The translations under genes and the position numbers were made by a program. Positions 1,486-35,694 of a DNA stretch of 36,019 nt are shown one piece after another. The stretch spans positions 1 through 36,019 of the forward strand of contig JAAYPO010000061.1 in the NCBI GenBank assembly GCA_012519745.1, read 5' to 3'. A model generated the notes under the pieces. That model made no database searches. It was given only the letters and a program-made list of their open reading frames with translations, and had not been told where the DNA came from. The stretch is from Clostridiaceae bacterium (GTDB lineage: Bacteria; Bacillota; Clostridia; Acetivibrionales; DTU013). How positions within the stretch are numbered: position 1 is the first letter of the stretch; each line of letters begins with the position of its first letter.

Positions 1486-2061
1486 ATGAGTGACAATAAA
1501 GTAAATCCTTTTACGATCTTTTTTGATCTGCAAAATGGGATGTCCGACGAGAGAAAACCTACAAGGCGCCTCCTTTCACAAATGAAGGGAATGTATGCTG
1601 ATGACACAGCTTTTGAAGCCGCGGTAAAAGCCAATGATGACACGGTCTATGATTTTTATGAGCTTGGCTTGCCGGAGACTTCGGGAGATCTGCTTTTTGG
1701 GACCAGCATCGTATATCCAGGCAAAGTCGGCAATGAATATTATATGACAAAAGGACACTTCCACACTATCCTAGACACAGCCGAGGTCTATTACTGCCTG
1801 AGCGGCAAGGGCTACATGCTCATGGAAAACCCGGAGGGCGACTGGGATGCTCAGCTGCTGACGCCGGGCAAGGCAGTTTATGTTCCCGGAAGATATGCTC
1901 ACAGGAGCATCAATATAGGGGATGAAAAGCTGGTGACCTTCTTCGTGTTCCGTGCCGATGCAGGCCATGATTATGGAACCATCGAAACAAAGGGTTACAG
2001 GAAGCTGATAGTTGAAAAGGACGGAAAGCCTGTAATCATAGACAATCCGAAATGGAAATGA
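1486..2061 (+). CDS. Cupin-type glucose-6-phosphate isomerase
   Basis: The protein has 191 residues, and AGAGGAGA precedes the ATG. It is a single cupin domain of the archaeal-type glucose-6-phosphate isomerase family, which interconverts aldose and ketose 6-phosphates using a bound metal. The metal ligands are visible: His91 and His93 in KGHFH, Glu100 in DTAEVYY and His139 in GRYAHRS. The length fits the family (~190 aa). It lies 37 nt after the AroE-like gene and 30 nt before the KDPG aldolase, so it is almost certainly co-transcribed. In this setting it may act on an unusual sugar or sugar-acid phosphate rather than serve as the glycolytic enzyme. That is inference from context. Confidence 0.85.
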   Translation: MSDNKVNPFTIFFDLQNGMSDERKPTRRLLSQMKGMYADDTAFEAAVKANDDTVYDFYELGLPETSGDLLFGTSIVYPGKVGNEYYMTKGHFHTILDTAEVYYCLSGKGYMLMENPEGDWDAQLLTPGKAVYVPGRYAHRSINIGDEKLVTFFVFRADAGHDYGTIETKGYRKLIVEKDGKPVIIDNPKWK

Positions 2062-2091
2062 AAATAAAGCCTTTGGGAGGTTTGTACTGAC

Positions 2092-2730
2092 ATGAGTAAA
2101 AAGTGGGAGATCATTAAGAAAATAACCGATTCAGGTCTGGTTGTTGTAGTGCGTGCCGATAATGCCGACACGGCAAAGAGGATAACAGATGCATGCCTTG
2201 AAGGCGGCGCTGCTGCAATAGAAATAACGTATACAGTACCGGGTGCGACCAAGGTCATCGAAGAGCTGTCAAAGGAATACGCAGGTAAGATAATCATAGG
2301 TGCCGGGACTGTGCTCGATCCCGAAACCGCAAGGATAGCCATCCTGTCCGGTGCACAGTATGTCGTCAGTCCCTTCCTCAGCCGTGAGACCCTAAAGCTG
2401 TGCAACCGCTACCAGGTGCCCTGCATGCCGGGTGTCATGACGATAGAGGGAGTTGTGGAGGCAATGGAGCTAGGTGCTGATATCCTGAAGGTATTCCCGG
2501 GTGAGGCTTTTGGACCTGGTATAATCAAGTCGATAAAGGGTCCCCTGCCCCAGGCTAACATGATGCCTACCGGCGGAGTCAGCATTGACAATGTGGATCA
2601 GTGGATCAAAGCCGGCGCAGTTGCGGTAGGTGCGGGCGGCAGCCTGACAGCAGGCGCAAAGACCGGTGATTATGCAAGCATAAAACGCCTCGCCGCCGAG
2701 TTCGTCGCCAAGATAAAAGCGGCAAGATAA
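2092..2730 (+). CDS. eda: KDPG/KHG aldolase (2-dehydro-3-deoxyphosphogluconate aldolase)
   Basis: The protein has 212 residues, the usual size for this class I aldolase, and GGGAGG lies 11 nt before the ATG. The Schiff-base Lys is Lys133 in ADILKVFPG, the catalytic Glu is Glu44 in AIEIT, and Arg21 after the VVVV strand matches the carboxylate-binding Arg. The MPTGGV phosphate-binding segment and a second Gly-rich loop follow. The reaction cleaves 2-keto-3-deoxy-6-phosphogluconate to pyruvate and glyceraldehyde 3-phosphate; relatives also act on 4-hydroxy-2-oxoglutarate or the galacto epimer. It is the last gene of the plus-strand operon. A long hairpin starting 3 nt after its stop codon probably ends the transcript. 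Confidence 0.92.
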   Translation: MSKKWEIIKKITDSGLVVVVRADNADTAKRITDACLEGGAAAIEITYTVPGATKVIEELSKEYAGKIIIGAGTVLDPETARIAILSGAQYVVSPFLSRETLKLCNRYQVPCMPGVMTIEGVVEAMELGADILKVFPGEAFGPGIIKSIKGPLPQANMMPTGGVSIDNVDQWIKAGAVAVGAGGSLTAGAKTGDYASIKRLAAEFVAKIKAAR

Positions 2731-2732
2731 TT

Positions 2733-2803
2733 CAGGGGATCAGGCTTGTATGATTGCCTTATTCAATTAAAGGAGAATGGGCAATTATGCAAGCCTGCCC
2801 CTG
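2733..2803 (+). terminator. Long hairpin between convergent genes, also a dispersed repeat
   Basis: Bases 2741-2758 pair with 2780-2797 over 18 bp. In the plus-strand transcript the only two non-Watson-Crick positions are G-U pairs, whereas they would be A-C mismatches in the minus-strand RNA. Outside this, CAGGGG (2733-2738) pairs with CCCCTG (2798-2803), leaving a 2-nt bulge. The loop is 21 nt. Only a short T-run follows, so the terminator role for the eda operon is inferred. The right arm overlaps the 3' end of the opposing small gene. An exact 17-base piece of this element recurs at 35701. Confidence 0.6.
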
Positions 2804-3117
2804 TTTGCTATCAGATCCATGAGATAAGGTATGTTTTCACCATATATATAATTATAGAGTGTTGTGCGTTCACCGCTCTTCTCGATTATATCGAAGCTGG
2901 CATCCTTTTTCATTTTGATCAGGGGATACATTGAGTCCTCCACCCTATCGATGGCTGTATATGGGATATCTTTCAGTACACGCTTGAAAACCATACCTGC
3001 TATTACTACTCTTTCGCTGGTTATATATACCAGTACATCATGATGCCCTATATTGATCTTTCGCAACTTTGCAGTGTGCACAAGCACCTCACTATCCCTT
3101 AGTACAAATCTTGCCAT
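2785..3117 (-). CDS. Small PH-domain-like protein of unknown function
   Basis: The protein has 110 residues from the ATG at 3117, which is preceded by an AGGAAAGG stretch about 9-11 nt upstream. An in-frame ATG at 3159 would add 14 residues but has no ribosome binding site. The protein alternates strands (a VLVYITSERVVIAG segment near the middle of the first half) with no signal peptide or membrane span and a terminal helix. The pattern resembles a small bacterial PH-like beta-barrel, a fold-level guess only. It follows rhamnulokinase by 64 nt on the same strand and converges on eda. I do not recognise a specific function. Confidence 0.6.
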   Translation of the reverse strand: MARFVLRDSEVLVHTAKLRKINIGHHDVLVYITSERVVIAGMVFKRVLKDIPYTAIDRVEDSMYPLIKMKKDASFDIIEKSGERTTLYNYIYGENIPYLMDLIANRGRLA

Positions 3118-20423: not shown

Positions 20424-21824
20424 CTACTCTCTTCCATTCCAGCAGTATGTGCATACCCTGCATTTTGGAAGGCCAATGGAATCGATCATATCATCGATCT
20501 CCTGATATCTCAGACTGGTGAATTTAAGCTTTTTTCTGATGCATTCTACCATGCAGTTATATTTCTCGGTCCCCGGATCTGAATAATCATCGATGTTTAC
20601 CGGATCTGTACCCTCCAGCTCCCTTATGGTACGCCTGGTGATCAGATCCATTTCGGAACGCGACCGCGAAAAATTGAGATATTTACAGCCATACAGCAGC
20701 GGAGGGCATGCCGGCCTTATATGTACTTCCCTGGCATTGAAATTGTACAACAGCTCAACGGTCTCGCTCATTTGCGTGCCGCGTACTATAGAGTCATCGC
20801 AGAATAATAATCGCTTGTCCTTCACCAGCTCGGGTATCGGGATCAGCTTCATCTTGGCCACCAGGTTCCTGATGCTCTGATCCTGCGGAATGAAGCTTCT
20901 TGACCAGGTCGGTGTGTATTTTACAAAGGGCCTGACGTATGGGAACCCGGACTTGCCGGAATATCCCAAAGCATGGGCAACGCCCGAATCGGGGACGCCG
21001 GCCACGCCGTCGATCTCCACATCGTCCTTGCGGGCAAGGGCCTCGCCGCTTCTGTACCGCATTATCTCAACATTTTTTCCCTCATAGGAGGATGCGGGAT
21101 ATCCGTAATACACCCAAAGAAAGGCACATATTTTCATTTCCTCTCTGGCCGGAGATATGCTCTCGATACCATCAGGGGTGATCCTGACGATCTCCCCGGG
21201 TCCCAGCTCACGCTTGAGTGCGTAGCCAAGGTTGGGCAGTGCGCTGGATTCGAAGGCGACACAATATGCACCCTCCTTCTCTCCGATCCCCAGAGGAGTT
21301 CTTCCCAGCCGGTCTCTCGATGCATATATTCCCTCATGATTCAGCACCAGCATGGTCAGGGAGCCGTCTATCTCCTCCTGTGCCCTCAGGATGCCATCCT
21401 TTATCGTATCCTCCAGGTCTATAAGGGCTGCCACCATTTCTGTAGGGTTTATCTCTCCCCTGCTCATTTCAAGAAAATGTATATAGTTGACGGCAAAAGC
21501 CTTTTTTACAAGCTCGTTGATATTATTTATACGGCCCACCGTCGTCAGAGCATAGTGCCCGTGGTGGGAACAGACCGTAAGGGGCTGTGCTTCGGTATCA
21601 CTTATACAGCCGATCCCCATATTTCCTTCCATATCGGCAAGATCGTTTTCAAACTTCGCTCTGAACTGAACATTCTCTATGTTATGGATATATCTTGAAA
21701 ATCCGTTGCCGGTATAGACCGCCATCCCGCCTCTGCTTGTGCCAAGATGCGAGTGGTAGTCGGTACCGAAATACAGATCCATTACGCAGTCGTTTTTAGA
21801 TGCAACACCAAATAATCCTCCCAT
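20424..21824 (-). CDS. PurF-like phosphoribosyltransferase with a degenerate glutaminase domain
   Basis: The ATG at 21824 (GGGATGTGG upstream) gives 466 residues. The order is that of amidophosphoribosyltransferase, an N-terminal class II glutamine amidotransferase domain and a C-terminal PRPP-binding domain. The PRPP motif LFCDDSIVRGT is intact, as is GVPDSG and the FIPQDQSIRN region. The glutaminase side is not. The required Cys right after Met is Gly (MGGLFGV), the usual GHxRYST becomes GCISDTE, and the usual HNG oxyanion loop reads TVG. C-terminal cysteines (CRVCTYC) resemble the Fe-S ligands of Bacillus-type PurF. It may make phosphoribosylamine from ammonia or use another amine. No purine genes are adjacent, and arginase is upstream. 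It is unlikely to be the housekeeping purF. Confidence 0.85.
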   Translation of the reverse strand: MGGLFGVASKNDCVMDLYFGTDYHSHLGTSRGGMAVYTGNGFSRYIHNIENVQFRAKFENDLADMEGNMGIGCISDTEAQPLTVCSHHGHYALTTVGRINNINELVKKAFAVNYIHFLEMSRGEINPTEMVAALIDLEDTIKDGILRAQEEIDGSLTMLVLNHEGIYASRDRLGRTPLGIGEKEGAYCVAFESSALPNLGYALKRELGPGEIVRITPDGIESISPAREEMKICAFLWVYYGYPASSYEGKNVEIMRYRSGEALARKDDVEIDGVAGVPDSGVAHALGYSGKSGFPYVRPFVKYTPTWSRSFIPQDQSIRNLVAKMKLIPIPELVKDKRLLFCDDSIVRGTQMSETVELLYNFNAREVHIRPACPPLLYGCKYLNFSRSRSEMDLITRRTIRELEGTDPVNIDDYSDPGTEKYNCMVECIRKKLKFTSLRYQEIDDMIDSIGLPKCRVCTYCWNGRE

Positions 21825-21881
21825 AATTACCACATCCCGTCATGTTTTTTAGATTTATCTACTTGAATAGCACATACTACC

Positions 21882-25065: not shown

Positions 25066-26508
25066 ATGATAAAAGCTGAACATAATATTAAAAAAAGCAT
25101 CCCCGGTTCTTTTTTAGAACTGTTTCGTTCCAAAGACAACATCAACCTCCGCAATGTGCGGCTGGATCATCTGCAATATATGTTGATTTTTCCCTTGGCG
25201 CCTGTTTTTGCAAATATGCAGGGAGCCTTATTCAGCTATTCTGTCAGGCTTCTTGGGCTGGACGCCATGACATTGATGGGCAGCGCGTATTGTGTCGGTG
25301 CCGGGTCGCTGTTTGCCTTTTCGAATGTAAAAAACATGGCAAAGGTTTCCCGGATTTCCGCTATTATCATGGCGGCCGCCTATATACCATGGCTCATGAT
25401 GGGCGAAAGCCTGCTCAGTCTGTTGCTTGCCATCATATTCATGTTCTTTTTGGGCGGCTGCGCTGCCTGTGCGGCATTTGCCTACACCTTTGCACTGAAC
25501 AATACAGAGAGACTGCTGGGTGCGGCAATGATCTCCACATTTTTTGCACTAAATCAGATCGTTTCCGGCCTTTCCCTCCTGTCCGGCCTTTTTGACAGGA
25601 CATATCTGACGGCGCTTATAGCAGGCAGCTGCATATGTCTGCTGCTATACAAAGCCGGTGATTTCACTTTTGCCGAAAACAGGCCAAAAGCTTCACTGAA
25701 CCCCGCACTTAAGCTGACTCTTTATTTCTTTGTGGCTCATTACTTCGTTGAAATATTCTATACTTACCTGCCCGGAGCGTCCAGTCCTGACGCCATGGTC
25801 GCCAACGGAGCCGTCGGCATATTGGTGGTGTGTCTTGCAGTCGTGATGCAGCTTGTCACAAAACGCAGCATCTGGAACATGTGCAATCTTTTCTTTCTGG
25901 CCGAGATCGGTACCTACATGCTGTATTTTATGAAGGAAGGCTCTGTGCTTCGAAGCTTTGCGCGTTTTCTCCACGGCTTCGAACAGATGGGGTATATCGC
26001 GGCGTATTACCTCCTGGGATGTGTATTCAAGAAGCACGGTGATTTTCGCACCTTCAAGCTGAGCCTTGTTACTATCCTGCCGGCCAGCATGCTTTCCTAT
26101 GTGATCCCGGGGATATTGGCCTCCTATGCACCTGATCTGCTCCCGCTTGCGGCCACGCTGACCTCCGGTGTTATATTTATCGTGTTTATACTGATGTCTC
26201 CAGCCTATTCCAGACACCTGTTTTTCGCTGAATGGGCCGATGATTTCTACGGTGTTGACATGGCCGAAGCCGGACAGAAAATCCAGCGATCGGGCATGCT
26301 GGAAAACCTGGGCCTTTCACCCCGTGAGAAGGAAGTAGCCTTATTGCTTTTGCAGGGCCGTTCTGCAAAGGAGATCTCACAGGAATTGGTGATCACCATC
26401 AGTACTGTCAATTTTCACATCAAAAACCTCTATAAAAAACTAAAAATCAGTAATCGTTCTGAACTCTTCGCCCGGTTTTCTTCCCATTCCATATCAATGA
26501 AGGTATAA
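25066..26508 (+). CDS. Membrane-embedded LuxR-type regulator: 12-TM MFS-like domain fused to HTH
   Basis: The protein has 480 residues; AGAGTG before the ATG is a weak binding site. Residues ~38-377 contain about twelve hydrophobic segments in an MFS-like pattern, with a central hydrophilic stretch near 197-210. After the last span and a ~30-residue linker comes a LuxR/NarL helix-turn-helix (about 410-470: LSPREKEVALLLLQG, AKEIS, ISTVNFHIKNLYKKL). Such one-piece fusions of a transporter-like sensor to a LuxR domain are known, mainly from Coriobacteria and some Clostridia, and are thought to sense a ligand at or in the membrane and regulate adjacent genes. Here the adjacent gene, 102 nt downstream on the same strand, encodes the giant surface protein. 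The ligand is unknown. Confidence 0.88.
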   Translation: MIKAEHNIKKSIPGSFLELFRSKDNINLRNVRLDHLQYMLIFPLAPVFANMQGALFSYSVRLLGLDAMTLMGSAYCVGAGSLFAFSNVKNMAKVSRISAIIMAAAYIPWLMMGESLLSLLLAIIFMFFLGGCAACAAFAYTFALNNTERLLGAAMISTFFALNQIVSGLSLLSGLFDRTYLTALIAGSCICLLLYKAGDFTFAENRPKASLNPALKLTLYFFVAHYFVEIFYTYLPGASSPDAMVANGAVGILVVCLAVVMQLVTKRSIWNMCNLFFLAEIGTYMLYFMKEGSVLRSFARFLHGFEQMGYIAAYYLLGCVFKKHGDFRTFKLSLVTILPASMLSYVIPGILASYAPDLLPLAATLTSGVIFIVFILMSPAYSRHLFFAEWADDFYGVDMAEAGQKIQRSGMLENLGLSPREKEVALLLLQGRSAKEISQELVITISTVNFHIKNLYKKLKISNRSELFARFSSHSISMKV

Positions 26509-26550: not shown

Positions 26551-26610
26551 CAACATACTTTTCTTTCTATAAAATTGGAAAGGAATGGAGGTCAATAGGG
26601 GGGTTACGAT

Positions 26611-29600
26611 ATGGAATCCATTAAGAAAGCATTCTGTTGGGTACTTATGCAGTTTAGAATTCATACGGTGCGTTCACTGCTGATCACCATCCCCGCCCTG
26701 GTCATTGCTGTCGGCGGGATCCTATGGGCATGCGGTGTTTTTTCAGGCAGCAGCTCCACATACCTGCCCCACCGTGAATATATCCTTACTCCTGCCGAAA
26801 AGCCGGAGCCTCAAACGCTGGAGGAGCTGCTGCACAGCGATTTCCCCAGTGTGGATACGCTGTTGAAAAACCCCGGAGTGGCACAGGAGTTGATACTGGC
26901 TGAAAATATGACGGATATCGTCGATTCTCGCCTGGCGCTGAACAATCTGCGCAGTCTGGATGAACAGTTGAAGCAACGCCTTGAGGAAGAAGCTCCGCCA
27001 GTTGTCGATATAGCTGCACGCTCTTCCGGCAACAACAAGAGGTCCGGAACTGCCGATGATGCAGGCGGGCTGTCCATAACCGAACAGACCTCCGGTGCGG
27101 TGGCTGCAAATCAGCCGGGTGCCGCTGCAACAAGGAGCGGTGATACATCAATACCCCTTGCCGGATCAACGCAACTCGCTTTAAATCACCGTAATAAACT
27201 TGAAACATTAAAGTCTGCCACAGAAAAACTCTTGGCAGTACCGTCCTTCGGCAGTCCTGTAAGGTTTCCTGCGGTTTTGAATATAAAGGGCGTCTGGCAA
27301 TCCCCCGACGAAGCGCTCATCCATATGGTGCCCTCAGGCGACTGGCTGCCCGGTGAGGGCTGCAGGCTCTATCGTGTGGTGAACGGTGAGAAAGTGCTGA
27401 TCGCAGAAAGGCTCGCATCGTCCGAGACAGGCTTGTCCGGAGATCTGGAGCTGGAAAATGCGGATATGATCCGGGCTCTTTATCATCAGGCCGAACTGAC
27501 CCCCGATAAGCTCGGCAAGCTGGGCATGGACTCCGAGGAGTTCCACGAAATGGCCTACCGGACATATTCTCTCGAATCGAGGCCTCGAATAGGCGGAGAG
27601 ACAGACTTTCTGGCTATGAAGGAGGCTCTTGTCACCATCCCGGCAGGCATCGAACAGAAGATACCTGAAACCGACCTTTTGCTCGACCGGCCCATCATCC
27701 TATCCGGCAGACAGCCCAACGGGCAATATGCCAGTGCGGCGATCCAATCATCCGTCTGGAAGAAATTCTCCGTCAGACAGGCTGAAATGCCGGCAGGCAT
27801 AGATGATCTGAAGCTCTTGCCGGATGGCGGGACGAAATTTGAAACCGCAAATGAGATCCTTGCCGCAAGGCAGCGTCTTTCGACACTGGCCTTCGTTGAC
27901 GACGAATTCGCTGAGGAGGCCGGACTCCTCTTCCGTGACGATCTGTCGGGGCTGGGCCTGCCCGACGGAGCCGAAATCAGCTATGTTGCGGAAATGCCCG
28001 CTCACGCCGGCTCCACCCTTCAAATCATCAAAGGAGATGAAAATAACCTTACCAAGCCCCAAAGGCTCATGGGATACGGCATCGACGGCAAAGTACCCCT
28101 GCGCTGGGCAGAAGCAGAGACAAAGAAGGAAAGAAGCATACTGAGCGGATATCATATCGAACGCAGGCTTGACGGTGAAAGCAAATTCACCAGGATCACC
28201 AATGAGCCTGTAGTCATTACACATATGCTTGACGAAACAAACACCTATTTCCAATCGCCGGTCTTTTATGAGGATACGGTAGAAAACGGCCGCACAGCCG
28301 AATACCGCATCTATTCCATCGACGTATTTGGCAGAAGGAGCGGGTATTCGGACGTTTGTACGCTAAAAGTCGAAAAGGTGACTCCGCCTAACGCCCCCGC
28401 AGCAGATGCGCCCGGCCTCACCTATTCCGGAAAGAGCGGGAAATCTCCTGCTGCCGGCAATCCCGTCAATTCCGACGATTCCGGCAATGACACGGAGGTG
28501 TCACCCGCCGTTCATATAGCCAGTGAACTCAATCCGAACAAGCGCGGCATCGCTCTGCCGGTTTTCACCGATTCACCCGATACAGTACGCTTCACGATTT
28601 ACAGAGCGGTAGCTGTAGGCGCAAAGGGATTTGGACCGCCCGAGCTGATCGCCGATCTGGAATATGACAATCCAAAGGCAGCCGCTTCCAACGGGGCACA
28701 GCCGGAGAGTTCTGAAGCAGCATATCCCGGCATTGGTTTGGGACCGTCGCAGACAGTGGATCTTAAAGCAACACAGCAGGGCATTGACTTAGAACCGGTA
28801 CGGCCCGAATTATATCAAACGGCTGTGACGTGGAAGAGCATTTTTGCCAGGAGCAAACACGCACTACTCAAAACTCCTTCCCCCTTAAGTCCTGATCTGA
28901 TATATTTTGATGACGATATCACAGACGGCTGTACATATAAATACTGGGTTTCCGCATGGGATTCGTGGAATAACGAAAGCGCCTGGTCCCAGGCAGTCTC
29001 ATTTGCTTTGCCCACGGATGCCGAGCCTCAGGATCCGGGTGAGCTGTTCATCGCAATGCATCCGCGGATTCTAAACGATTATTCCGCAAATCCTCCGGGA
29101 CTCATACACGATGGCATAGTCACCTACGATGATCTGTCGCTGGCAGCCGAGCTGCCAAAGAGGCCTGTACCGGAAGGCGCCGTAATGGAAACGGTACAGG
29201 ATGCCATCGAGGATGGCGTTGCCATAGGAAGATTCCTTACATATACCGGTATGAGATCATACGGATCGGGCACCGATATGGGAGCACACGGCTCGGGCGG
29301 CAGCACGGGATCGTCTGCCTCCGGCCAAGCTGCCATTGTGGGAGCATCCGGTTCCAGTACCATCACAGGGCCATCCGGTTCCAGTACCATCACAGGGCCA
29401 TCACGCCCGAATATCGCATATTGTCCTCCCTATATCGACATCAGATACGACAACCTTCCGTCAGACAGGTATATGCATGTGTTCTTAGGCGTGCGGGGCG
29501 AGGACGTCCTCCCCGACGGTACAGCGCGCCTCAAATGGCCGGCATACAGCGGCGAAGGATTGGGAGGCTATGTTGTATACCGTCCTTTATTTAATGTAAA

Positions 29601-32600
29601 GTCTCTTGAAGAAATGCAGAAAATGTCGCGGACCGAGCTTCTTCGGATGGGCATGTGGGAGCGTATGAACGAATTGGCTCTGACACAGAACCAGCTGCTC
29701 GTAAGCGGCATGGACCCCACACCTGGAAATCTTGCAGTGTTTCTGATATGCCTTGAGCCCGAAGCATCTGAATCATCTGAATTGGAATCACTGCTTCAAA
29801 GATTTGACGATCTGCATCATATCGGCCGTCAATCCCAGGAATCGACTCAATCTGAAATAAATCCGGAGGGCGGTTATGTCTACATCGACTGGGATGCCCC
29901 TGACGACCCGCAGATCGAATTTTATCGCGTATACCGAAGCGAGGTGCCCTCCTTCAAAAAGCCCGTTGATGAATCCGCCCTCGAATGGACGCTGGTCGGC
30001 GACCGGCTTGTGAACCCCAAATACACAGAACGGGTGGAGCAAACCTTTGCCCATTATTACTACTACAAGATCACATCGGTATCCCCATGGGGCATCGAGT
30101 CGACGGTCGGCAGGGTGCAGCGTTTCCGTGTACCCTCCACCAAGCCGCCGCAGACCCCCAACCTCCTGCTGCCGCTCCAGACAAAGGAGGGTGTGAAGGT
30201 GCAGTTCTCGGCGGTCAGCCACTGCGACCGGTACGAAATATACCGTGCCGCTATTCCCAGACCGGGTCAGGAGGACATAGACGAGCTGCTGTCCCTGGAT
30301 CCTGAACTGCATGCAGTACTGTTTGCATCACCGGCCGAGGAGGATATTTTCCTGAAAAATCTGCTGAGGACTTCTCTTATACCGAACCCTTCGATGAACT
30401 CCGGTCCTGACGGGGCAAACCCTTCACCGGCTGCCGGGCGGTCCGGGACAGAGGCAGGATCGTCTGCACCGCAGAATGCCTCAGGCTCATATCTGCCTGT
30501 TCAGATCAATCCGATCAGCAGGCTTAAAACGCTCACCGGCTTTAACGCAGCCTCAGTGATAGATAATCTCACCGGCCTTGACGATGACCGGCTGCGAATC
30601 ACATACAATACGATCCTGGACAAATACGGCCCCCTTGCCCTGGCAGACTACGATGTCCTGAGCATTGAAATGATGAATAGAGTGAAATGGGTCAAGGTAG
30701 GTGAGCTTCCGTCCGACTACGACACTGTCGAAGCGGTGGACCCTGCCACCGGCCTTTTAAAACCTCTCTCCTTTAATGATACAACAGCCAGATACGGCAT
30801 CACCTACCTCTACACCGTTCAGGCCTGGAACGACGATAACCTGGGTTCCTCAAGACCCGAGCCTGTGAAAGCCACCCCACGCAGAAACCGTGCCTTCGAT
30901 CCCATCGACGGGCTTACGGGAGAGATCGATGATGCCATGAGGCCGAGTCTTGAATGGGATCTGCCCAAAATGTCTCCGCTGACCCAGGAGCAGTGTCTGG
31001 ACGATACAGTTGGCTATATTGTCTACCGTTCGGATACAGAAGATGGGACATATTATCAGGCAAGTCCGCTTCTCTTTACCAACAGCTGGGTGGACGAAAA
31101 TGCCGATCCTTATGCCTATAACTGGTACAGGGTAAAGGTCCTCGATACAGGCGGCTATCTATCGGAATTTTCCGAGCCGGTACTCGTCAGGTATAATAAC
31201 TATATCTCCGTATTAACAACGGAAATACCCGGATTACGCGTGCCCAAAGCGCCTGAAATCAGCATCAGAGGCGAAAGCTTTGCCATAACCGAAGGTGATG
31301 GGTTCAGTGTGGCATACCAGCTCACCGGCGACAAGCCCGTCACAGTCACAGCAAGGGCAGTGAACGCCGCAGGCGCCACAGTTTCAGAGTTTTCGGCGGA
31401 TGAAGGCGCAAATATTGTCAAGGCTCCAAAAAGCCTGAAGCCCGGTACATACCGTGTCACGGTCACAGCAAGAAACACCGCTGGCGTGCATTCAGCCTCC
31501 TTTACTCTTACTGTATCGGCTAAAGCAGTTATCGACAAGCCCCAGATCCCCATCGAAACACCCCAGATCGACGCGCCACAGATCCCCATTGAAATACCTC
31601 AGATCGACGCGCCACAGATCCCCATTGAAATACCTCAGATCGACGCACCTCGTATCTCCTTTGACGGCAACAGCTTCAGAATCACTCAGGGAGACGGATT
31701 TGGGACAGTCTACGAGCTTTCCGGCACCGAGCCTGTCACAGTCACGGTAAAAGCCACCACCGCCGACGGTTCTGCAGCAAGAGGGTTTTCTGCGGATCAT
31801 GCCGCACATCTGGTTAAGGCCGGTCCGGACCTGGCTGTCGGCACATACTATGTCACAGCAACAGCCAAAAATGAAGCCGGCGAGCATTCTGCTTCATTTA
31901 CACTGACAGTACAGGCCAAGGCAGCAATACCGCCCAAGCTCGACGCTCGTGAGGATGACTATAACTTCACGATCCTCGCCGGCTCTGATACATATACGGT
32001 CCGGTTGTCCGCGACAGGCACAAAACCTCTCAGTTGGTCATTGAAGGCGGGTTCTTCGCGTCTTAATATCGTTCCCGCTGAGCTAAGTATCGACAGCAAC
32101 GGCTTGCTGACTGTCGCCAAGGGGATCAAGGCCGGCAAGTACAGCTTCGTTGTCCATGTTGCCAACGAATCCGGCTCAGACGAAAGAGTAGTCAACCTCA
32201 ATGTCATGGCCCGATTCTCACCCATCGGCCTCATCGAACCAAAGCTTCTTGCAATGAACGGTGAGGCAGCCATTCTGCCATCAGTTCAGCAATACAACCT
32301 GTTGGCTGTCACTTCCTTCGAGCAGTCATCAGACCAGTCAGGCATCCATTTGCAGGGACTTCAGGGCACCGGGCCCCAGGGGCTGTCGGGCACCCAGCAG
32401 ACCTCTCCGTCTTCCGTTTCGCAGCAGCTATTTCCGCACACCCAATCGCTCACAACTGCTTATGATCACCAGATCGATCAGATGAGCTGCATGGGATTCA
32501 TCCTGACAGACGTAAAGCTCAACAGGGTCCCCTACACTGATCGCTTTGCCGGAAGGGGTTTGTTGGACATCGGGTACGACATTCCCATCGAGGTCTGGAT

Positions 32601-35600
32601 TACCAACGCCGATTTCGATGATGCAGTCGGTTACAGCACTAGTGTACTGAAAAAAGGATCGGTCTACATATCAGCACCTGCCGAGCTTGAAAACATCGGC
32701 CTGACGTTGATGAGCCTCGATTTATCCCCCGACAGCAAAACGGCAAAGGTCAGCGGTTATATCAAGAGCACGACAGAAGGTCAAAATCTGGCAGGTGATC
32801 TGTACGTGCTGGAATTCGAAGATGCGGCGCTTGAGCCGGGCAGAGTAGTTGTCGGCCAGGGGATCCCTGAAATACGCTGGAAGCAGTTCGTTTTCAAAAG
32901 TCTCAATTATATCAATATATATCTCGGCGCCGTGCAGGACACAGACAAGAAGCTTTTGTCAATGTCAGGCAAAGGCATATACATGAGATCCCATCTCGAA
33001 ACGCTCAGCAACGAGGGTCTGCAATTTGAACAGAGCATAATAAGCTTTGACATGCAAGGCAGAATGGATGCCACCTTCGTCACTGCCAGAGAACAATGCC
33101 TGCAGTTGCTGGTGCCGGGCGGCGCAGGACTGCGGGTCGACCAGGCTGCCCTTCAGTTCAGGAACGGGGAGGTCAAGCCCGGTGGACGTCTCATCGGCAA
33201 ACTGGTGCTTCCATTCGAAAATGCCACCGCCGGCGGCTCCCTGGTACCGGCTGTTTACGCAGGCGGACATCCCGCACACAGCGAGATGGACGACATCGCA
33301 GCCGGCAGCGGCGAGCTTTCTCCGGGGGAAATGGTTGTGATGAATGATACATTGGTACACTATGGTGAAACGGTACAGCAAAACAGCCTTCTCATCCTGC
33401 CAGCCTCCTTTGCACTTCAGGATAAATGTACATCGATCCCTATTGATGTGGCAAACTGGGACGGCGGAGGCTTTGTGGTCAAATCGTCGACCATGGATCC
33501 CGTAAGGGTGACAAATCGTAATCTGGAGGGCGGCTACAGCGAGGATGGTTTTTACATCTATAATCAGCGTGCTCAGGCTGTCGTTGTATCACCCTCGACG
33601 GTGTCGGTGGACCTTGACCGCAAATCCTTCCTGCCGGGCAGCGACAGCTCTCAGAACCAGAACGGCACCGGAGAGATCCTCACACCGAAGGAAGTCGGAA
33701 AACCCTTCTGGGTGGGTGTCGTTATCAACGGCGGAAAGCTGGCTTTGCCATCATCCTACCTTCAGCAGGCTGACGGGGGGACCATCGAGTTTATGCTGGC
33801 AGAGGGTGAGATGATCTACGACCTGAACGGCTTTAATTACCAGAGCTATATGTACAGCAGCGATCCGGAAGGCGTACCTGCCCGTTTCGGCGATAGTCTT
33901 GGCGGCTTTGAGCATGTGAGGATCAAGGACTGCCTCCTGGATATGTATTCAAACCGTGTCAACTTCGAGATCAACGCAATGGTCCGGGTAGATCTCTTTC
34001 ATTATGAATGGGCCGAAGCAAAGCTTTTTACCGACGAAAAGGGAAAATTCATATGCTCGGCAGCTCCCACAATGATCGAAGATTGTCTGGCAAAGGGCGT
34101 GGATGTGAAAATAGACGGAGGCTTTTTTGAACGGGAGGGTCTGAAGATCAGCGGTCAGGTTATACTGCCCCCTCCGGGCACTGCCGGTTACGAAATCGGT
34201 TCGCAGGACCCGCTGGCTTTCACCAGCATGATAGTGCCTGCCGATCCTGAAAAAATACGCGTGCAGAGCAGCACGAACATCTATGCCTCCGTGCCTCTCG
34301 ATAAGCCTGTGAACATCGACTTCCAGGGCTTCCCCATGGAAGTGCGCGGCTTTGACATCAAATACACCGCTCCCAAGACTCCGCAAGTCCTTCCCAGAGG
34401 CGAACACAAAACCGATTTTGCGGAACTGACTCTACACGGAGCAACACAGCTTTCGGACAGCATCGCGCTGTCAAACGACACCACCGACTCTCTTGTGGTC
34501 AAGTGCGCCGATAAAGAGGTCATCCCGTCGGTGCTTTACGATAAGTCATACTCGATACTGAACAACTCCTTCGACGGCTGTATCGACGTTGTAGGCAGGC
34601 TTGTACCCAAAAAGATCCAAAATGCGGGCGGTCGTCTTGTGGAGTTTGAGAGCGAAGAACTGGAGCTCATATTCCTGGGGCAAAATCTCAATTCACTGCC
34701 GGTGGCCCACTACACCCGCTTCGGCAAGGCGGGCAGCAATTTCTACTTCGCGGTGGGACTTGCGCCAATGGGCGGTAAACCCATCAACTTCGGCGCCGGC
34801 AACATAGAAAGATTCACAGGACTTGTAGCCCAAAACATGAAGGTGGATAAGGACGAACAAGGGCGGCTTGCCTTCCCGGAAAATGCCGGCAATATGAGTG
34901 CCTATATCAGAGATCTCCAGGTGGGCGGCGGCAGATTCGCCGGCGGTATCAAGGGCGAGATGACCGTTTTCAGGCTGTGCACCATAAAAAACCTATACTT
35001 CGGCTTCGAGCCCGGTCCGAAGGTCACTGCAGGCGGCGATGTATACGTGCCTCTGGACATAAAATCCATCGTTGATGGAAACCCCTCCAGATATGTTGGA
35101 AAGACTAATATACAATACAGACATGCCGACCGCTATTTCTCCTTCAAAATGACCTTCGACAATATGAACATCGTAATATTTGATTTCGGAGGCAGCATGG
35201 GCCTTGAGTACAGCCCTCGCCTGTTCGGCGTTCAGATCGGGTATCCCGAAACGCTGTACACCAATTTCCAGCTGGGTTTCATCCCCGTCCATGTAGGCGT
35301 CGGCCTTGGCTTTCGCATCGATCAGGATAACGAATCCATGGTTCAGGCTAAACTTGAATTCGGGCTTGAGAAGGAAATAGAAGTTGCCATTGTATATCTG
35401 CACGGCTATATCTATGCAGGCGCTGACGGAGCATATTACTGGGGCGGTCCCGACGGCAGCAGGATCACGCTGGACCTCTATTTGAAGGGCGGCATCGAGG
35501 GCGGTATCGTAGCCTTCGATAAAAGATACAACATCATCAGCTTCTATCTGGACGCCCACGGCACACTGGCATCGGGCGGCGGCTTCAAGAGCTGGGAACT

Positions 35601-35694
35601 CGGATGCAGCTGTACGGTTGGCTATAGCCTGGATCTGTGGCTGGTGGAGATCGAAGGCTCTGTCAATGCGAGTTTCAACACCACGATAGGCTGA
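26611..35694 (+). CDS. Giant (3027-residue) membrane-anchored multidomain surface protein
   Basis: One uninterrupted frame; GGGGG lies 8 nt before the ATG. Residues ~22-44 are a hydrophobic span after a basic start, a signal anchor or, through LWAC at Cys41, possibly a lipoprotein signal. A polar, partly helical part and a Gly/Ser/Ala-rich linker (~133-186) follow. Fn3-like modules lie near 494-589, 645-802, 1089-1180, 1181-1424 (with a large insert) and 1445-1529, each with a IYR/VYRS-type strand. A Ser/Gly linker with a 27-bp duplication sits near 884-934. Two similar Ig/PIG-like domains (~1544-1640 and 1680-1770) flank three PQIPIE repeats, and a third diverged one follows (~1775-1867). 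Residues ~1950-3027 are rich in strands broken by Gly (IKGEM, GGDVYVPL, LKGGIEGG) and match nothing I can name. No LPxTG, SLH, protease or glycosidase motif is evident. The neighbour upstream is a membrane LuxR regulator. Confidence 0.85.
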   Translation: MESIKKAFCWVLMQFRIHTVRSLLITIPALVIAVGGILWACGVFSGSSSTYLPHREYILTPAEKPEPQTLEELLHSDFPSVDTLLKNPGVAQELILAENMTDIVDSRLALNNLRSLDEQLKQRLEEEAPPVVDIAARSSGNNKRSGTADDAGGLSITEQTSGAVAANQPGAAATRSGDTSIPLAGSTQLALNHRNKLETLKSATEKLLAVPSFGSPVRFPAVLNIKGVWQSPDEALIHMVPSGDWLPGEGCRLYRVVNGEKVLIAERLASSETGLSGDLELENADMIRALYHQAELTPDKLGKLGMDSEEFHEMAYRTYSLESRPRIGGETDFLAMKEALVTIPAGIEQKIPETDLLLDRPIILSGRQPNGQYASAAIQSSVWKKFSVRQAEMPAGIDDLKLLPDGGTKFETANEILAARQRLSTLAFVDDEFAEEAGLLFRDDLSGLGLPDGAEISYVAEMPAHAGSTLQIIKGDENNLTKPQRLMGYGIDGKVPLRWAEAETKKERSILSGYHIERRLDGESKFTRITNEPVVITHMLDETNTYFQSPVFYEDTVENGRTAEYRIYSIDVFGRRSGYSDVCTLKVEKVTPPNAPAADAPGLTYSGKSGKSPAAGNPVNSDDSGNDTEVSPAVHIASELNPNKRGIALPVFTDSPDTVRFTIYRAVAVGAKGFGPPELIADLEYDNPKAAASNGAQPESSEAAYPGIGLGPSQTVDLKATQQGIDLEPVRPELYQTAVTWKSIFARSKHALLKTPSPLSPDLIYFDDDITDGCTYKYWVSAWDSWNNESAWSQAVSFALPTDAEPQDPGELFIAMHPRILNDYSANPPGLIHDGIVTYDDLSLAAELPKRPVPEGAVMETVQDAIEDGVAIGRFLTYTGMRSYGSGTDMGAHGSGGSTGSSASGQAAIVGASGSSTITGPSGSSTITGPSRPNIAYCPPYIDIRYDNLPSDRYMHVFLGVRGEDVLPDGTARLKWPAYSGEGLGGYVVYRPLFNVKSLEEMQKMSRTELLRMGMWERMNELALTQNQLLVSGMDPTPGNLAVFLICLEPEASESSELESLLQRFDDLHHIGRQSQESTQSEINPEGGYVYIDWDAPDDPQIEFYRVYRSEVPSFKKPVDESALEWTLVGDRLVNPKYTERVEQTFAHYYYYKITSVSPWGIESTVGRVQRFRVPSTKPPQTPNLLLPLQTKEGVKVQFSAVSHCDRYEIYRAAIPRPGQEDIDELLSLDPELHAVLFASPAEEDIFLKNLLRTSLIPNPSMNSGPDGANPSPAAGRSGTEAGSSAPQNASGSYLPVQINPISRLKTLTGFNAASVIDNLTGLDDDRLRITYNTILDKYGPLALADYDVLSIEMMNRVKWVKVGELPSDYDTVEAVDPATGLLKPLSFNDTTARYGITYLYTVQAWNDDNLGSSRPEPVKATPRRNRAFDPIDGLTGEIDDAMRPSLEWDLPKMSPLTQEQCLDDTVGYIVYRSDTEDGTYYQASPLLFTNSWVDENADPYAYNWYRVKVLDTGGYLSEFSEPVLVRYNNYISVLTTEIPGLRVPKAPEISIRGESFAITEGDGFSVAYQLTGDKPVTVTARAVNAAGATVSEFSADEGANIVKAPKSLKPGTYRVTVTARNTAGVHSASFTLTVSAKAVIDKPQIPIETPQIDAPQIPIEIPQIDAPQIPIEIPQIDAPRISFDGNSFRITQGDGFGTVYELSGTEPVTVTVKATTADGSAARGFSADHAAHLVKAGPDLAVGTYYVTATAKNEAGEHSASFTLTVQAKAAIPPKLDAREDDYNFTILAGSDTYTVRLSATGTKPLSWSLKAGSSRLNIVPAELSIDSNGLLTVAKGIKAGKYSFVVHVANESGSDERVVNLNVMARFSPIGLIEPKLLAMNGEAAILPSVQQYNLLAVTSFEQSSDQSGIHLQGLQGTGPQGLSGTQQTSPSSVSQQLFPHTQSLTTAYDHQIDQMSCMGFILTDVKLNRVPYTDRFAGRGLLDIGYDIPIEVWITNADFDDAVGYSTSVLKKGSVYISAPAELENIGLTLMSLDLSPDSKTAKVSGYIKSTTEGQNLAGDLYVLEFEDAALEPGRVVVGQGIPEIRWKQFVFKSLNYINIYLGAVQDTDKKLLSMSGKGIYMRSHLETLSNEGLQFEQSIISFDMQGRMDATFVTAREQCLQLLVPGGAGLRVDQAALQFRNGEVKPGGRLIGKLVLPFENATAGGSLVPAVYAGGHPAHSEMDDIAAGSGELSPGEMVVMNDTLVHYGETVQQNSLLILPASFALQDKCTSIPIDVANWDGGGFVVKSSTMDPVRVTNRNLEGGYSEDGFYIYNQRAQAVVVSPSTVSVDLDRKSFLPGSDSSQNQNGTGEILTPKEVGKPFWVGVVINGGKLALPSSYLQQADGGTIEFMLAEGEMIYDLNGFNYQSYMYSSDPEGVPARFGDSLGGFEHVRIKDCLLDMYSNRVNFEINAMVRVDLFHYEWAEAKLFTDEKGKFICSAAPTMIEDCLAKGVDVKIDGGFFEREGLKISGQVILPPPGTAGYEIGSQDPLAFTSMIVPADPEKIRVQSSTNIYASVPLDKPVNIDFQGFPMEVRGFDIKYTAPKTPQVLPRGEHKTDFAELTLHGATQLSDSIALSNDTTDSLVVKCADKEVIPSVLYDKSYSILNNSFDGCIDVVGRLVPKKIQNAGGRLVEFESEELELIFLGQNLNSLPVAHYTRFGKAGSNFYFAVGLAPMGGKPINFGAGNIERFTGLVAQNMKVDKDEQGRLAFPENAGNMSAYIRDLQVGGGRFAGGIKGEMTVFRLCTIKNLYFGFEPGPKVTAGGDVYVPLDIKSIVDGNPSRYVGKTNIQYRHADRYFSFKMTFDNMNIVIFDFGGSMGLEYSPRLFGVQIGYPETLYTNFQLGFIPVHVGVGLGFRIDQDNESMVQAKLEFGLEKEIEVAIVYLHGYIYAGADGAYYWGGPDGSRITLDLYLKGGIEGGIVAFDKRYNIISFYLDAHGTLASGGGFKSWELGCSCTVGYSLDLWLVEIEGSVNASFNTTIG
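29345..29398. repeat. Perfect 27-bp tandem duplication inside the giant gene
   Basis: Two identical 27-base units (29345-29371 and 29372-29398) encode SGSSTITGP twice in a Gly/Ser-rich linker. The period is a multiple of three, so the frame is kept. It looks recent because no base differs. Confidence 0.9.
31540..31647. repeat. Three 36-bp repeats encoding PQIPIExPQIDA
   Basis: Units at 31540-31575, 31576-31611 and 31612-31647 encode three copies of a 12-residue Pro/Ile segment (codons 1644-1679) between two homologous Ig/PIG-like domains. Copies two and three are almost identical in DNA; copy one has Thr for Ile. A proline every few residues suggests an extended, stiff spacer. Confidence 0.9.

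Follow-up and report, generated by a model that had tools for sequence, protein, structure and literature searches.

The window analysed here, 36,019 nucleotides long, is the whole of contig C128 of a 3.07-Mb assembly and encodes a protein of 3,027 residues. The locus raises the question of what such a giant protein does, and whether its front part is a stalk that presents the C-terminal region outside the cell, as had been proposed from the letters alone (the sequence-only reading). The features are collected in Table 1.

Table 1. Features of the giant gene and its upstream neighbour, in positions of the window
Feature	Position	Strand	Basis
12-TM LuxR-type regulator, 480 aa, HTH at residues 417–467	25066..26508	+	GerE, E 6.9e-16
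Putative Shine-Dalgarno AGGGGGG	26597..26603	+	7 nt before ATG; sequence
Giant protein gene, 3,027 aa	26611..35694	+	ATG to stop, uninterrupted; dN/dS 0.16
N-terminal signal anchor, TM residues 23–41, basic N-end	26611..26745	+	Hydrophobicity
Fn3-like region, residues 214–1530, divergent beta modules, several with insertions	27250..31200	+	Module patterns, weak profile matches
Best-conserved Fn3-like core, residues 1083–1528	29857..31194	+	39–82% identity across members
Three PIG/Ig-like modules, residues ~1544–1638, 1678–1768 and 1774–1868	31240..32214	+	He_PIG, mutual profile matches
C-terminal all-beta region, no known-family match, residues ~1950–3027 (~1,080 aa)	32458..35691	+	Conserved in 17 members

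The earlier claim of a single maintained 9-kb frame was confirmed. The frame is intact and ends 325 bases before the contig end, and eight other members have complete frames from start to stop (2,456–3,204 aa). The dN/dS between the window and its relative L018 was 0.16 over the full length and 0.145 in the C-terminal part; the ratio was measurable in two pairs (0.14–0.16). Judged by these values, the giant gene is under strong purifying selection.

The segment at residues 23–41 is the only strongly hydrophobic one in the protein. Basic residues lie in front of it, as in an N-in signal anchor. A TM helix is predicted in most members and a lipoprotein signal instead in L040 and L041, in L041 with an LTGC lipobox. 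The earlier reading of a membrane anchor and, apparently, of export was thus supported. No sortase LPXTG-type signal was found at the C-terminus, and Pfam gave no match to SLH domains in the giant protein.

The C-terminal region had been described as beta-rich, rich in glycine, not rich in cysteine and unlike any recognised domain, and each of these points stood. Glycine makes up 11.3% of it, compared with 7.7% in the front half, and cysteine 1%. The alternation of hydrophobic residues typical of beta strands was well above that of shuffled sequences (z 5.5), and most so in the last 330 residues (z 6.4); there, a barrel, a groove or ordinary sandwiches could all produce such a pattern. Pfam was searched up to E 10 with the C-terminal regions of the window, L013 and L014, without a match. 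The PDB profile search and the NCBIfam models gave none either, so that no well-described domain family claims the region. PHROGs returned a single match at chance level (E 0.36), and internal repeats were looked for and not found. An origin in viruses, phages or plasmids was rejected, as viral contigs, phages and plasmids held no relatives of the region.

Structure prediction, which had been suggested as a check, gave models of low confidence. The AF2 model from six sequences was all beta and had a mean pLDDT of 53; confidence was limited to the first ~180 residues and to stretches of positions 510–640 of the modelled piece. The model of the last 392 residues (five sequences, pLDDT 50) was mostly a continuous antiparallel meander, with strands of 15–20 residues at the end. 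Almost no helix or alpha/beta core was seen in these low-confidence models. The top Foldseek matches of both were mostly outer-membrane barrels (LptD, PapC, OmpT), but the TM-scores stayed below 0.2, the rmsd exceeded 20 A and the models were of low confidence. An identity with such barrels or with LptD was not accepted for this reason, and a viral structure library held no usable match. Antiparallel strands fill nearly the whole of the models, at low confidence, and no fold is given to the region because of the low-confidence models and the TM-scores.

In front of this region, the sequence-only reading had recognised both Fn3-like and PIG-like modules. For PIG, this was borne out. He_PIG (PF05345) matched residues 1606–1636 with 28.1 bits (cut-off 24; E 2.8e-6), the only Pfam domain above cut-off in the protein, and profile comparison matched the three modules to one another with probabilities of 98.7–99.9%. 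Pfam did not recognise the Fn3-like modules. About seven of these were recognised by pattern inspection, but the protein had no match to fn3 (PF00041) at E 0.1, hence none reaching the gathering cut-off, and only one of ten members matched fn3 within the core (E 0.014). In profile comparison with genuine fn3 domains from this genome, the module at residues 480–598 scored best (p 2.7e-4), and the others ranged from 0.001 to 0.9. This module also matched the one at residues 1426–1530 (probability 82%). We therefore call the region Fn3-like rather than Fn3, a name that reflects the module patterns and the weakness of the profile matches. Two open frames of 9,093 and 9,334 aa elsewhere in Clostridia, L068 (G021:C50) and L069 (G180:C4), match the Fn3-like core weakly and represent other giant proteins of the class.

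The Fn3-like modules, which Pfam does not find, contain the best-conserved stretches of the protein. Identity along the window protein was highest at residues ~1101–1200 and ~1401–1500 (47–90%), and most of the C-terminal region was lower. Searched with a profile of the core, the class sample yielded strong matches in ten genomes, and each of these also had the C-terminal region. The C-terminal region occurred without the core in two genomes (G422 and G261), and both loci run off the contig end. Accordingly, in the Clostridia class sample the core accompanied the C-terminal region wherever upstream sequence was present. An exception to this co-occurrence stands in a DTU069 assembly (L099 1–2858, G818:C15), at a locus that has neither the anchor nor the Fn3-like body. 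Its C-terminal fragment adjoins a LuxR gene broken by a frame-breaking internal deletion, and the locus looks like a decayed second copy. From the pattern of conservation, Fn3-like body and C-terminal region act like a single unit and are inherited together.

The PIG block behaves differently. Its copy number varies and it is missing in L021 and L040–L042, so that this block, and this block only, looks like a dispensable spacer. A proline-rich tandem repeat linker, PQIPIEIPQIDA, lies between PIG modules 1 and 2 (residues 1640–1677, positions 31528–31641) and is absent from L018 and L019. The idea that the N-terminal two thirds are an ordinary stalk was thus not supported. Of the stalk-plus-cargo picture, the spacer-like PIG block remains, but not the role given to the Fn3-like body, which seems to act with the C-terminal region. 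The model should be replaced by one in which body and C-terminal region belong together and the PIG block is the spacer.

The C-terminal region forms a conserved family. Protein and profile searches found relatives in two other genomes of the window's own family, on five named contigs (DTU069 and a Ruminiclostridium MAG among them), in 12 of the 391 Clostridia genomes sampled (the own genome counted) and in two genomes from other parts of the phylum. Altogether, the giant protein occurs in at least ten bacterial families, with a patchy distribution. Identity to the window in the C-terminal region ranged from 77% down to 28%. By these sequence matches, the giant protein is a true family.

In the tree of 17 members, the window copy grouped with L018 (99/98) and L019, and G004, a genome of the window's own genus, fell outside this group with full support. 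The contig L018 comes from G818, which belongs to another family (f23). As the distribution is patchy and discordant with taxonomy, horizontal transfer is suggested, and a transferred cassette explains these data most simply. Loss and hidden paralogy are possible, if less simple, alternatives. Misbinning of the contig was considered, as it might have made the tree discordant. In the window, a purF-like neighbour gene (20424–21833) was closest to its own genus and family (77–80%) and 73% identical to G818; this one gene argues against misbinning.

The neighbours of the giant genes were listed as well. Apart from a LuxR-type gene, no neighbour common across lineages was found, and a conserved gene cluster was rejected. 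This conserved neighbour had not been mentioned in the sequence-only reading. In the window it lies 102 bp upstream of the giant gene, and a simple Kyte–Doolittle scan gave 12 evenly spaced hydrophobic segments at residues 40–377. Full-length orthologs (72–83% identical) were found only beside the giant gene, and in the window's clade the regulator always adjoins it. The genes stand in tandem in the window and L018 and converge in L036 and L038. As adjacency was kept through this change of gene order, a functional link is supported. The ortholog was absent from the genus-mates G001 and G003, which also lack the giant gene, and from the giant-gene carriers G004, G007, G406, G238, G149 and G173.

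Two smaller observations concern the surroundings. A short extra LuxR-type HTH lies between the LuxR and giant genes in L018 (1956–2165) and L099 (1243–1581; 112 aa) and is 41–45% identical to the HTH of the LuxR. Moreover, two genomes from a single genus encode a protein of 160–190 aa (55% identical) close to the giant gene (L041 311–805, L042 7368–7928).

Three known systems were compared. Surface proteins with Fn3 and He_PIG domains share the membrane-anchored export architecture, the chains of Ig-fold-like modules and a PIG domain above the Pfam cut-off. In the giant protein, however, the Fn3-like modules are below Pfam detection and among the best-conserved parts, and its 1,080-residue C-terminal region has no counterpart there. 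DUF6603 (PF20248) resembles it in its long, beta-rich, glycine-containing regions and in a patchy occurrence among bacteria and archaea, one of the genomes being from the same order. It was rejected as a hidden relative: its HMM had no match in G000, and profile-profile alignment (hhalign) against seven DUF6603 proteins gave probabilities of 0.1–0.4%, equal to the reversed control. A literature search for a matching giant protein or for DUF6603 yielded nothing relevant. The regulator resembles the 12-TM LuxRs DadR, HcdR and CadR of Eggerthella lenta, which activate nearby genes upon small molecules (PMC9734109). The likeness is one of architecture, with a LuxR-type HTH behind 12 predicted TM helices, and of a gene encoded beside its presumptive target. 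The target there is a metabolic enzyme, whereas here, in Clostridia, it would be a giant surface protein.

The sequences themselves show an N-terminal anchor (TM helix, or predicted lipid anchor in two members), a body and a C-terminal region whose conservation is linked, an optional spacer and, in one clade, a linked regulator. The explanation we prefer, and to which we give an even chance, is a new family of giant, outward-facing beta proteins that are tethered to the membrane, form one unit binding a ligand or a surface and, in the window's clade, are switched by the LuxR. The chain would cross the membrane once with its N-end inside and project from the cell surface, where body and C-terminal region would bind together as an adhesin or binding scaffold. 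In the window's clade, the 12-TM LuxR would turn the giant gene on upon a signal perceived at the membrane; this is suggested by its architecture, the exclusive adjacency and the behaviour of the characterised 12-TM LuxRs. Together, the two genes would provide a giant surface protein under sensor control, which is probably produced on demand. By location and analogy, its most likely function is to attach or to bind a ligand at the cell surface, as an adhesin or scaffold. No ligand, binding motif or known binding domain was found in the giant protein.

The main rival, which we regard as rather unlikely, is an ordinary structural protein of the envelope. The giant would then be a passive fibre whose C-terminal region is merely a set of divergent structural beta domains. 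Beta modules throughout, the single anchor, the lack of a catalytic motif and the other Fn3 and SLH proteins of the same genome fit this. A housekeeping fibre would hardly show so many invariant residues in both halves, a C-terminal region free of internal repeats, a patchy distribution and a regulator of its own. A bolder alternative is that the C-terminal region is a membrane-active beta structure or one with a hydrophobic groove, such as a porin-like barrel, an usher-like channel or a groove for lipid transfer. It would carry a substrate, hydrophobic or polymeric, across the cell envelope, the N-terminal part serving as an arm. We consider it improbable. The strong two-residue alternation near the end, the meander with its long terminal strands and the outer-membrane barrels among the Foldseek matches point that way. 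However, any beta meander could yield such matches at these TM-scores, rmsd and pLDDT values, soluble sandwiches fit amphipathic strands too, and Clostridia generally have a single membrane. Slightly less probable again is a diverged enzyme displayed on the cell, for instance a lyase or hydrolase acting on polysaccharides. Carbohydrate-active enzymes are often part of giant clostridial Fn3/PIG proteins, but no Pfam, NCBIfam or PDB profile matched the region, and the predictions are nearly devoid of helix or an alpha/beta core. The C-terminal region might also belong to a fold class of its own, an amphipathic beta structure of many strands with a hydrophobic groove or channel outside the cell, working with the body as one machine, switched by the LuxR and spreading between families as a cassette; to this we give the same small chance as to the enzyme.

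With these giants, predicted to be tethered at the cell surface, an undescribed family with two conserved parts is found across Clostridia, for the most part in genomes derived from metagenomes. Being linked to it exclusively, the 12-TM LuxR offers a direct handle: the inducing signal would point to the role of the giant protein. The 12-TM LuxR architecture would thereby extend from the control of metabolic enzymes to that of surface structures.
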